Shown here: in pieces, positions 46,319 to 50,202 of the stretch | Layout of the letters: the number at the start of each line of letters is the position of its first letter | Numbering within the stretch: the first letter of the stretch is position 1 | Assembly: GCA_009377535.1 (NCBI GenBank) | Contig: WHTV01000001.1 | Coordinates: 106,421-170,420, forward strand | Reading direction: 5' to 3' | Length of the DNA: 64,000 bases | Source of the DNA: Kiloniellaceae bacterium | Lineage (GTDB): Bacteria > Pseudomonadota > Alphaproteobacteria > Kiloniellales > Kiloniellaceae | Notes under the pieces: model-generated | What the model saw: only the letters and a program-made list of their open reading frames with translations | Database searches by the model: none | Told to the model about the DNA's origin: nothing | Made by a program: the position numbers and the translations under genes

Positions 46319-46551
46319 GCCTTGGCTTGTCCTGGGCTCCGGGGGGAGGGTCTGTCGACAGCGGCAGGTTGCCACCCTGATGGATAGCAAACGGCTCTTT
46401 CCAACTGGTTAACCTTGTCGGGGAATCATTCGCTGCCAGGATGCGCTCGCGCAGAGTTGACTTGTCGACCCCGGTCCTGCGGGCTACCTCCTTGGCCAGC
46501 AAGGCCGCACAAAATGCGGGCTCTCGAGAGCAGATCAGGAGGTTTTACCGC

Positions 46552-47544
46552 ATGTTGATCCGGATCCGACGGGGCTGGGAAATCCCCGAATCGCAGGTGA
46601 CCCCTGAGAATTGTTTCCTGGACCGGCGCCGGCTGCTGAAGACGGCAGCGGCCGGATCGATGCTGATCGGCAGCGCCGGGCTGCTGACGGCCTGCGACGA
46701 CATGTCGGTTGCCGAGGCGGCCGAGGACGACGACCCTTCGGCCAAGCTCTACCCGGTCTCGCGCAATGAGCGCTACACCCTGGATCGGCCGATCACCGAC
46801 GAATCGCTGGCCACCAGCTACAACAACTTCTACGAATTCGGCTCCTCCAAGAACATCGCGGCAAAGGCACAGGCGCTGCCGATCCGGCCCTGGACCGTCA
46901 CCTTCGACGGCATGGTCGAAGAGCCCAGGGAGGTCGACATTGATGATCTGCTGGCCAGGATGCCGCTGGAGGAGCGGCTTTACCGCCACCGCTGCGTCGA
47001 GGCCTGGTCGATGGCGGTGCCCTACAGCGGCTTCCCGATGAAGGCGCTGGTCGATTTCGCCAAGCCGCTGTCTTCGGCCAAGTACGTGAAGATGACCACC
47101 TTCCTGGACCCGGAGGTGGCCGGCGGCCAGCGCGCCGCCTGGTATCCCTGGCCCTACGTTGAGGGCCTTACCATGGCCGAGGCGACCCACGAGCTGGCCT
47201 TCATCGCCACCGGCCTCTACGGCAAGCCGATCGTCAAGCAGAACGGCGCGCCGCTGCGCCTGGCGGTACCATGGAAGTACGGCTTCAAGCACATCAAGAG
47301 CATCGTGCGCTTCGAGTTCACCGACGAGCGGCCGAAGTCTTACTGGGAGGTCATCCAGGGCAGCGAGTACGGCTTCTGGGCCAACGTGAACCCGGAAGTG
47401 CCGCACCCACGCTGGAGCCAGGCCAGCGAGCGCGTCCTGGGCCTGAACGAGCAGGTGCCGACCCTGCTCTACAACGGCTATGCCGAGTTCGTGGCCGACC
47501 TTTACAAGGACATCGACACCGCCGAAGAACGGCTCTTCATGTAG
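46552..47544 (+). CDS. msrP: protein-methionine-sulfoxide reductase catalytic subunit (YedY-like)
   Basis: Tat signal LDRRRLLKTAAAGSMLIGSAGLL; molybdopterin-ligating YRHRCVEAWSMAVPYSGFP; LPWKYGFKHIKSI-like segment. Confidence 0.95.
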   Translation: MLIRIRRGWEIPESQVTPENCFLDRRRLLKTAAAGSMLIGSAGLLTACDDMSVAEAAEDDDPSAKLYPVSRNERYTLDRPITDESLATSYNNFYEFGSSKNIAAKAQALPIRPWTVTFDGMVEEPREVDIDDLLARMPLEERLYRHRCVEAWSMAVPYSGFPMKALVDFAKPLSSAKYVKMTTFLDPEVAGGQRAAWYPWPYVEGLTMAEATHELAFIATGLYGKPIVKQNGAPLRLAVPWKYGFKHIKSIVRFEFTDERPKSYWEVIQGSEYGFWANVNPEVPHPRWSQASERVLGLNEQVPTLLYNGYAEFVADLYKDIDTAEERLFM

Positions 47545-47638: not shown

Positions 47639-47669
47639 AAAAGAAAATGCCGGGCCAAAAGGCCCGGCA
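47639..47669 (-). terminator. intrinsic terminator (minus strand)
   Basis: Minus strand TGCCGGGCC-TTTT-GGCCCGGCA-TTTTCTTTT. Confidence 0.85.
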
Positions 47670-47902
47670 AGTTGAACAGGGAGGCTTCACGTCTGGGAGA
47701 CGTAGGACCTGAAAGGAGTGGGAACTCCCAGAGGCCCTTTTCCGAGCGGGGGGCGCTCGGAACTCACTCCGGCCGAAGCCGAAAATCCGGGGGATGCTGC
47801 GACGCAACATCCGATGACTTGAAAATAGGGATTTGAATTTCTTTTACTACATACATTCGGGCAGTGGTGATATGCGAACAGCGCATGGCTGCGCAAGCGA
47901 CT
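47639..47902 (-). ncRNA. candidate structured small RNA (about 260 nt), unassigned family
   Basis: Promoter-like TGGACC-17-TACAAT upstream; seven consecutive hairpins including a cUUCGg tetraloop on the minus strand; ends in perfect 9-bp hairpin plus TTTTCTTTT. Confidence 0.5.
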
Positions 47903-47908
47903 GATTTT

Positions 47909-47937
47909 ATTGTAGATTCATGGCATTTTTGGGTCCA
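47909..47937 (-). promoter_or_regulatory. sigma70-like promoter for the candidate sRNA
   Basis: Minus strand TGGACC (47937-47932), 17-nt spacer, TACAAT (47914-47909). Confidence 0.45.
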
Positions 47938-47982: not shown

Positions 47983-48873
47983 TCAGAAGTTGGATTCCGC
48001 AACCTTGCGTAGCAGGAAGTCCCGGAACACCGAGATCCGCTTGGAGCGGCGCATTTCCTCCGCATAGACGAAGTAGGCATCGAACTGTGGGCCGTTCAGT
48101 TCGGGCAGCACCTGCACCAGGTCCGGGTTGGCGGCCGCCATGAACTCCGGCAGGGCGCCGAGGCCGGCGCCCGACTGCACCGCCTTCATGACGCCGTAGA
48201 CGTTGTTCACGGTCATCGTCGGGCGGCGCAGCTGGCTGTCCTTGTAGCCGACCCGGAGCAGCCAGTTCACGTCCGGCACCGGCGGGCGCACGTCCTCGCC
48301 GTAGACCACGATGCGATGCTTGTCGAGATCCTTGGCGGTCTGCGGCACGCCGTGCTTCTTGATGTAGCTGGCGGCGGCATAGATGTGCATGTTCACCGTC
48401 ATCAGGTGACGCTGGATGAGATCGGCCTGGCGCGGCGGCGAGAAGCGGATCGCCAGGTCGGCCTCGCGCATGGAGAGATCGACCTCGCGGTCGAGCAGCA
48501 GCAGGTGGCACTCGATCTCCGGGTAGACGTCGATGAACTCGCTCATGCGGGCGGCCAGCCAGTGGGAGCCGAAGGCCACCGTGGTGGTGATCTTCAGCGG
48601 TCCCTTGGGCCGGTCCTTGCTCTCGGTGAGCTGCGCCTCGGTCATCGCCAGCTTGCCGAAGACCTCGTGGGCCGTGCGATACAGCAGCTCGCCCTGCTCG
48701 GTGAGGATGAGGCCGCGGGCATGGCGGTGGAACAGCGGCACCTTCAGGCTGTCTTCGAGGGCCGAAATCTGGCGGCTCACCGCCGACTGGCTGAGGTTCA
48801 GCAGCTCGCCGGCATGAGTAAAGCTGCCCGCCTCCGCCACAGCGTGGAAGATGCGCAGCTTGTCCCAATCCAT
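47983..48873 (-). CDS. LysR-family transcriptional regulator
   Basis: MDWDKLRIFHAVAEAGSFTHAGELLNLSQSAVSRQISALEDSLKVPLFHRHARGLILTEQGE. Confidence 0.95.
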   Translation of the reverse strand: MDWDKLRIFHAVAEAGSFTHAGELLNLSQSAVSRQISALEDSLKVPLFHRHARGLILTEQGELLYRTAHEVFGKLAMTEAQLTESKDRPKGPLKITTTVAFGSHWLAARMSEFIDVYPEIECHLLLLDREVDLSMREADLAIRFSPPRQADLIQRHLMTVNMHIYAAASYIKKHGVPQTAKDLDKHRIVVYGEDVRPPVPDVNWLLRVGYKDSQLRRPTMTVNNVYGVMKAVQSGAGLGALPEFMAAANPDLVQVLPELNGPQFDAYFVYAEEMRRSKRISVFRDFLLRKVAESNF

Positions 48874-49046: not shown

Positions 49047-50018
49047 CTATTCCGCAGCTTTATCGACGGAATCTGTCAATTCTGCCAGGAATTTCTCCGC
49101 CTCCAGGGCTGCCATGCAGCCCATGCCGGCCGCGGTGACGGCTTGGCGGAACACCTTGTCGACGCAGTCGCCGGCGGCGAAGACCCCCGCCGCCGAAGTG
49201 CCGGTGGAGCCGCGGGCGGCCAGGATATAGCCCTCGTCGTCCATCTTCACCGCGCCCTGGAACACCTTGGTGGCCGGGTCGTGGCCGATGGCGATGAAGA
49301 CCCCCTCGCAGGGCAGTTCACTGAGTTCCGCAGTCCGCGTGTCGCGCAAGCGTACGCCGGTCACCCCGTCCATCGGACCGTCGCCTCCCAGGATGTCGTC
49401 GATCACGGCGTTCCAGCGCACCTCGATCTTGGGGTTGCGGAACAGCCGGTCCTGGCCGATTTTCTCGGCGCGCAGCGCCTCGCGGCGGTGGATCAGGGTT
49501 ACCTTGGAGCAGATGTTGGCGAGGTAGAGGGCCTCCTCCACCGCGGTGTTGCCGCCGCCGACCACCACCACCTCCTTGCCGCGATAGAAGAAGCCGTCGC
49601 AGGTGGCGCAGGCGGAGACGCCGCGGCCGTTGAACTTCTGCTCTCCCGGAATGCCCAGCCAGCGCGCCTGGGCGCCGGTGGCGATGATCACCGCGTCGGC
49701 GGTGTAGGTGGTGCCGCTATCGCCCCGCATGAGCAGCGGGCGGCGGGTGAAATCGACCTCGGTGATGATGTCGGAGACGATATCGGTGCCGACGTGCTCG
49801 GCCTGCTTCTGCATCTGTTCCATCAGCCAGGGACCCTGGATGACGTCGGCGAAGCCCGGGTAGTTCTCCACGTCGGTGGTGATGGTCATCTGTCCGCCGG
49901 GCTGCAGGCCGTGGACCAGCCGCGGTTCTAGATTGGCGCGGGCGGAATAGATCGCCGCAGTCAGCCCGGCAGCGCCGGAGCCGATGATGAAAATCTTGCT
50001 GTGGCGGGTTTCGGCCAT
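49047..50018 (-). CDS. trxB: thioredoxin-disulfide reductase
   Basis: IIGSGAAGLTAAIYSARANLEP; SACATCDGFFYRGKEVVVVGGGNTAVEEALYLA; FAAGDCVDKVFRQAVTAAGMGCMAA. Confidence 0.97.
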   Translation of the reverse strand: MAETRHSKIFIIGSGAAGLTAAIYSARANLEPRLVHGLQPGGQMTITTDVENYPGFADVIQGPWLMEQMQKQAEHVGTDIVSDIITEVDFTRRPLLMRGDSGTTYTADAVIIATGAQARWLGIPGEQKFNGRGVSACATCDGFFYRGKEVVVVGGGNTAVEEALYLANICSKVTLIHRREALRAEKIGQDRLFRNPKIEVRWNAVIDDILGGDGPMDGVTGVRLRDTRTAELSELPCEGVFIAIGHDPATKVFQGAVKMDDEGYILAARGSTGTSAAGVFAAGDCVDKVFRQAVTAAGMGCMAALEAEKFLAELTDSVDKAAE

Positions 50019-50202
50019 GACGGGAAAAGCTCCTGACTCGGATGTACTTACCGAAAATAGAGACGGCAGCGGCGAGCCGCAAGGCGACGAAGCGCCGCGC
50101 CGGCAAGCTTGCGGGGGATATCTCGCGGCCCATCTTGACGGCCGGGCGGTCCGATTCCAGGCTGCGGCCCCGCCCAGAGAGCAGCAACGGACCGGCCAGC
50201 CC

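Follow-up and report, generated by a model that had tools for sequence, protein, structure and literature searches.

Comparative sequence analysis of the window, the 64,000-nucleotide stretch of a Kiloniellaceae genome considered here, points to a real, conserved sRNA gene, undescribed and unnamed, on the minus strand behind lsrB. Judged from its sequence and surroundings, this sRNA is most likely an LsrB-controlled, trans-acting RNA with anti-Shine-Dalgarno (anti-SD) segments and, in position and regulation, the counterpart of AbcR. We assign a probability of about three in four to the overall explanation, in which an independent AbcR-type sRNA gene of the LsrB circuit would have its own promoter and an intrinsic terminator. 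The computation reveals the gene itself, its conservation, the covariation of its stems, its synteny with lsrB and a shared operator. The features of the locus, in window coordinates, are as follows.

49047 to 50024, minus strand: trxB, thioredoxin reductase (NCBIfam TIGR01292 above cut-off; synteny).
47983 to 48873, minus strand: lsrB/vtlR ortholog, LysR family (E=4e-100 to PDB 9HH1, A. tumefaciens LsrB).
47909 to 47937, minus strand: promoter-like TGGACC-17-TACAAT (present in the sequence; 29-43% identity within the genus).
47869 to 47890, minus strand: predicted LsrB operator AGCCATGCGC-TGTTC-GCATATC (dyad ATGC-N7-GCAT, with T-N11-A inside).
47822 to 47849, minus strand: conserved promoter, TAGTAA (47849-47844), 16 nt, TATTTT (47827-47822) (alignment; 93-100% genus identity).
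47640 to 47815, minus strand: predicted sRNA gene (block kept in 23/23 family genomes; alignment; fold z -5.4).
47792 to 47812, minus strand: hairpin 1, GGATGUUGC-GUC-GCAGCAUCC (kept in 21/22 aligned homologs; 93% genus identity).
47770 to 47781, minus strand: UUCG hairpin of the variable region (present in the sequence; region weakly conserved).
47740 to 47762, minus strand: C5-loop hairpin UUCCGAGCG-CCCCC-CGCUCGGAA (96% genus identity).
47704 to 47738, minus strand: P2 stem AGGGCCU/AGGUCCU around a GGAGU-UCCC-ACUCC insert (fold and covariation).
47689 to 47703, minus strand: M1-like hairpin ACGUCU-CCC-AGACGU, which includes CUCCCA (identity 100% in the genus, 98% in other genera).
47670 to 47688, minus strand: anti-SD seed GAAGCCUCCCUGUUCAACU, mostly unpaired (identity 100% in the genus, 97% in other genera).
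47639 to 47669, minus strand: intrinsic terminator and U tract (strong hairpin; stem sequence varies, pairing kept).
46441 to 47544, plus strand: msrP, convergent neighbour downstream (NCBIfam NF003767 above cut-off).

The RNA probably extends from about 47815 to 47640 and comprises about 175 nt. The initial annotation had taken TGGACC-17-TACAAT as its promoter, with a 5' end near 47902 and a length of about 260 nt. That match is poorly conserved within the genus and is probably not the sRNA promoter. The conserved dyad and -10 both lie downstream of it, and the start is therefore placed near 47815, about 7 nt past the conserved -10. GCGCA-GCCA-TGCGC, previously read as an RNA hairpin, corresponds to the left arm of the DNA dyad, upstream of the conserved -10. 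All hairpins named at that stage, the terminator and the promoter-like match are present at their coordinates, and hairpin 1, the C5-loop hairpin, the CCC-loop hairpin, the CCUCCC stretch and the terminator are conserved. The GGAGU-UCCC-ACUCC hairpin exists in the window but is absent from several close relatives, where the P2 counterpart is GGGUC-UUCG-GACCC. The minus-strand assignment agrees with the fold z values, which are -5.6 on the minus strand versus -2.8 on the plus strand for the region originally noted (dinucleotide shuffles), and -5.4 versus -3.1 for the revised transcript, 47640-47815. The CCC loop of the M1-like hairpin is computed as unpaired, and the seed GAAGCCUCCCUGUUCAACU has a computed unpaired probability of 0.6-0.96.

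The locus was matched in 23/23 genomes of the family with a 331-base query, and among named relatives the window groups in or next to Pelagibius. An alignment of 22 homologs indicates that the hairpin ACGUCUCCCAGACGU and the GAAGCCUCCCUGUUCAACU that follows it are the near-invariant parts (100% in the genus, 97-98% in other genera). Covariation was examined in 66 sequences, comprising the window and loci taken from 80 named LysR hits. Both sides had changed in 10 of the 15 tested stem pairs, with 54 double-change cells against 14 in shuffles and far lower counts in slid controls. Double changes affect four of the five counted pairs of the P2 stem (66 sequences) and are also observed in the stem equivalent to the C5-loop hairpin (66 loci). 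No conserved reading frame was found across the sRNA homologs. A small protein starting at a conserved ATG in hairpin 1 was considered and rejected, as the frames run from 9 to >74 residues and disagree between homologs.

The neighbouring regulator, assigned earlier to the LysR family without recognition of its LsrB/VtlR identity or of the synteny with abcR1/abcR2, is by sequence LsrB/VtlR. It matches PDB 9HH1, the Agrobacterium tumefaciens LsrB (PMC11975290), over 297 residues with 338 bits, and the next PDB match reaches 113 bits. The trxB-lsrB order is constant across the family wherever the contig extends far enough. The sRNA core lies downstream of lsrB on the same strand in 71/80 named LsrB loci (Pelagibius, Kiloniella, Azospirillum, Inquilinus). 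We then surveyed 290 genomes of the class with R1, which models the 3' module, using a cut-off of 40.5 bits and a distance of 6 kb from lsrB on the same strand. The listed matches at or above the cut-off number 142. Of the 117 R1 matches listed in genomes with lsrB, 95 lie downstream of lsrB on the same strand, at a median of 223 nt. Of the 150 genomes for which an lsrB was listed, 90 have an R1 match within 6 kb of it on the same strand.

Several side observations concern copy number. Second or third sRNA copies occur near lsrB, 0.2-2.3 kb further on, in loci L055, L063/L044 and L159, and resemble the tandem AbcR1/AbcR2. A further member, weaker at 40.5 bits, was observed on the minus strand of the window's own genome (G000:C11:33396-33457, L033). 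It has CCUCCCUGUUAAACUUG and a terminator and is not near lsrB but immediately upstream of what looks like an O-acetylhomoserine sulfhydrylase-like gene. Seven copies of the 3' module occur in each of two genomes of 1.6-1.8 Mb (G258, G268), and LsrB was not found in them at the cut-off used. One record titled Mycobacterium sp. KBS0706 (L104, NZ_VCCH02000111.1) contains an Inquilinus-like lsrB-sRNA locus, probably owing to a wrong title or a contaminated assembly. The LsrB ortholog at 47983-48873 lacks C144 and C273, two residues linked to redox sensing that the LsrB proteins of Agrobacterium, Sinorhizobium and Brucella have in common (PMC11975290). Because these two cysteines are missing, the LsrB of the window may sense another signal, or sense it differently.

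The dyad upstream of the conserved -10 is shared with the relatives, in which it reads TATGCA-N6-GCATA. Sites scoring at least 8/10 against TATGC-N7-GCATA were found in 51 of 66 upstream regions, versus 8% of shuffles, and the window operator matches the published LsrB half-site imperfectly and in part. In other genera the promoter appears in the alignment as TCGACA-16-TACATT or TATGTT. One genus has 1.4-1.8 kb between lysR and the sRNA, with the dyad still beside the sRNA, which is thus not merely a lysR 3' UTR. Conservation, covariation, the promoter and operator of its own and the lysR-sRNA distances together bear out the initial proposal of an independent, probably trans-acting minus-strand sRNA with C-rich anti-SD segments.

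AbcR sRNAs, described as a Rhizobiales family, shape how rhizobia, Agrobacterium and Brucella colonise their hosts and which nutrients they choose; rhizobia and Brucella use them to limit the uptake of nutrients. The gene order in Agrobacterium is trxB-vtlR(lsrB)-abcR1-abcR2 (PMC7486931). In Sinorhizobium, abcR1 is activated by LsrB via the box GCAT-N3-TG-N3-T (PMC8844928), against which a contrary report finds no control of AbcR by LsrB (PMC7486931). AbcR RNAs repress transporter mRNAs (PMC5461406, PMC8844928), and their motifs CUCCCA and GUUCCC work by pairing with ribosome-binding sites (PMC5461406). The sRNA of the window shares with AbcR1/AbcR2 of Sinorhizobium, Agrobacterium and Brucella its location behind trxB-lsrB/vtlR, a dyad upstream of the promoter (the predicted LsrB/VtlR box), a CUCCCA-type motif in a hairpin loop whose CCC is unpaired, a second anti-SD segment and an intrinsic terminator. 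It differs in being longer, with extra hairpins, in occurring as one copy instead of the usual tandem pair, and in having CCUCCCUGUU in place of the M2 motif GUUCCC. A Rhizobiaceae-type genome (L170), whose LsrB is 93% identical to that of Agrobacterium, provides a direct comparison: two ar15/AbcR genes follow lsrB, with 127 and 119 bits, and AbcR1, the first of the two, is preceded by the same dyad in the form TATGCGGACAGCGCATAACTGGCAT, where it overlaps the published LsrB box.

At the level of RNA sequence the two families do not recognize each other. With the ar15 model (RF02345, threshold 40 bits) the window's own genome gave no match and 19 relatives none at E<=0.5, and with R1 no match was found to the AbcR genes of L170. 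Because ar15 misses the Pelagibius RNA and R1 misses AbcR, the sRNA is not a member of Rfam ar15 as defined. An ar15 scan of 241 class genomes gave no match, but its controls were silent too, and that scan is uninformative. Two loci behind lsrB in the Rhizobiales-type order (L174, L175) give weak scores with the ar15 and SorX models alike, and may be intermediates between AbcR and the sRNA family described here. A search of the available literature for AbcR together with Rhodospirillales found no report, and the searched main text of an Azospirillum sRNA survey mentions no such locus.

In agreement with the earlier view of the RNA as undescribed, no Rfam family was reached at curated thresholds across the whole window. 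Below threshold, the 3' module resembles the Rfam models of SorX, SorY, mmgR and anti-hemB. The closest of the rival explanations is that the RNA is a SorX-like product of the lysR mRNA 3' end. SorX of Rhodobacter sphaeroides, which represses the transporter gene potA, has the same 3' module of hairpin, CUCCCUGUU and terminator, and is itself cut out of an ompR-type mRNA 3' end (PMC9438474). The window scores 39.5 bits with the SorX model (RF02784; threshold 46.6), which is passed by 1/19 relatives, a same-genus homolog with 50.3 bits. However, here the neighbour is lsrB, a conserved operator and promoter stand between lysR and the RNA, and the operator stays by the sRNA in the genus with the long spacing. 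We thus regard such an origin as unlikely.

Less probable still is a diverged copy of alpha-r8 (mmgR/SisA-D) that would lie beside lsrB by chance. The plan of hairpin, single-stranded CCUCCCU and terminator is common to both, the mmgR model (RF00519) gives 22-29.5 bits, and ar15 and mmgR belong to one Rfam clan, CL00108. Against this, every score falls under the 41-bit threshold (22 bits for the window, at most 33.7 for the relatives' copies), and alpha-r8 is described with a weak hairpin, lacks the invariant CUCCCA loop and adjoins an N-formylglutamate amidohydrolase gene (PMC12559287), whereas the RNA considered here has the invariant ACGUCUCCCAGACGU hairpin and lsrB as its neighbour. That the element is a mere terminator and 3' UTR stabiliser of trxB-lysR, lacking trans function, accords with its strong terminator and its position behind lysR but is very improbable, the terminator stem being the variable part and the unpaired CCUCCCUGUU and the M1 hairpin the invariant part.

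In the preferred reading, that of an AbcR-type gene in the LsrB circuit, the sRNA would have a promoter of its own immediately behind lsrB, be transcribed on the minus strand and end at the intrinsic terminator. LsrB would probably bind the ATGC-N7-GCAT dyad, which lies some 64 nt before the start, and activate the gene. The RNA would then expose two conserved anti-SD segments: CUCCCA in a hairpin loop and, ahead of the terminator, CCUCCCUGUU as a single strand. These may pair with the ribosome-binding sites of mRNAs, mostly mRNAs for periplasmic solute-binding proteins, and translation would be blocked, probably with Hfq, as by AbcR1/2. Transcription, control by LsrB, the part of Hfq, the targets and the sign of regulation are what we infer from the locus and its relatives.

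Candidate targets were sought in the family genomes. Nineteen of the 27 genes with AACAGGGAGG before the ATG encode solute-binding proteins, including a one-family sugar-binding protein (Peripla_BP_4) in four Pelagibius genomes. The permuted control motif ACAAGGGAGG gave 12/27 (one-sided p=0.049 versus the seed), and the seed-specific signal is therefore weak. Within the window's own genome, at least three solute-binding proteins have CAGGGAGG and none CGGGGAGG, the latter judged by eye in a comparison too small to be decisive. The family-wide counts offer a hint that mRNAs of solute-binding proteins may be targets. Across the family, ACAAGGGAGG, like AACAGGGAGG, often stands ahead of the start codon of solute-binding-protein genes; as both are frequent there, extended GGGAGG ribosome-binding sites seem typical of these genes.

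On the sequence evidence, the sRNA is an AbcR-type variant in the LsrB circuit, well outside the Rhizobiales, which suggests that this regulator-RNA circuit arose much earlier and is spread much more widely than so far known. We tentatively propose, with slightly less than even confidence, that much of the Alphaproteobacteria inherited the lsrB-linked operator-sRNA unit from a common ancestor. Regulator, operator and anti-SD logic would have been kept while the RNA sequence was remodelled; the AbcR (ar15) of Rhizobiales would be one derived branch, and the unit possibly the source of SorX-like copies. Should Azospirillum, Inquilinus, Kiloniella and further groups outside the rhizobia possess an AbcR counterpart under the same regulator and operator, the circuit would greatly predate its role in host interaction, and many genomes without an Rfam match would gain a named, testable sRNA gene.
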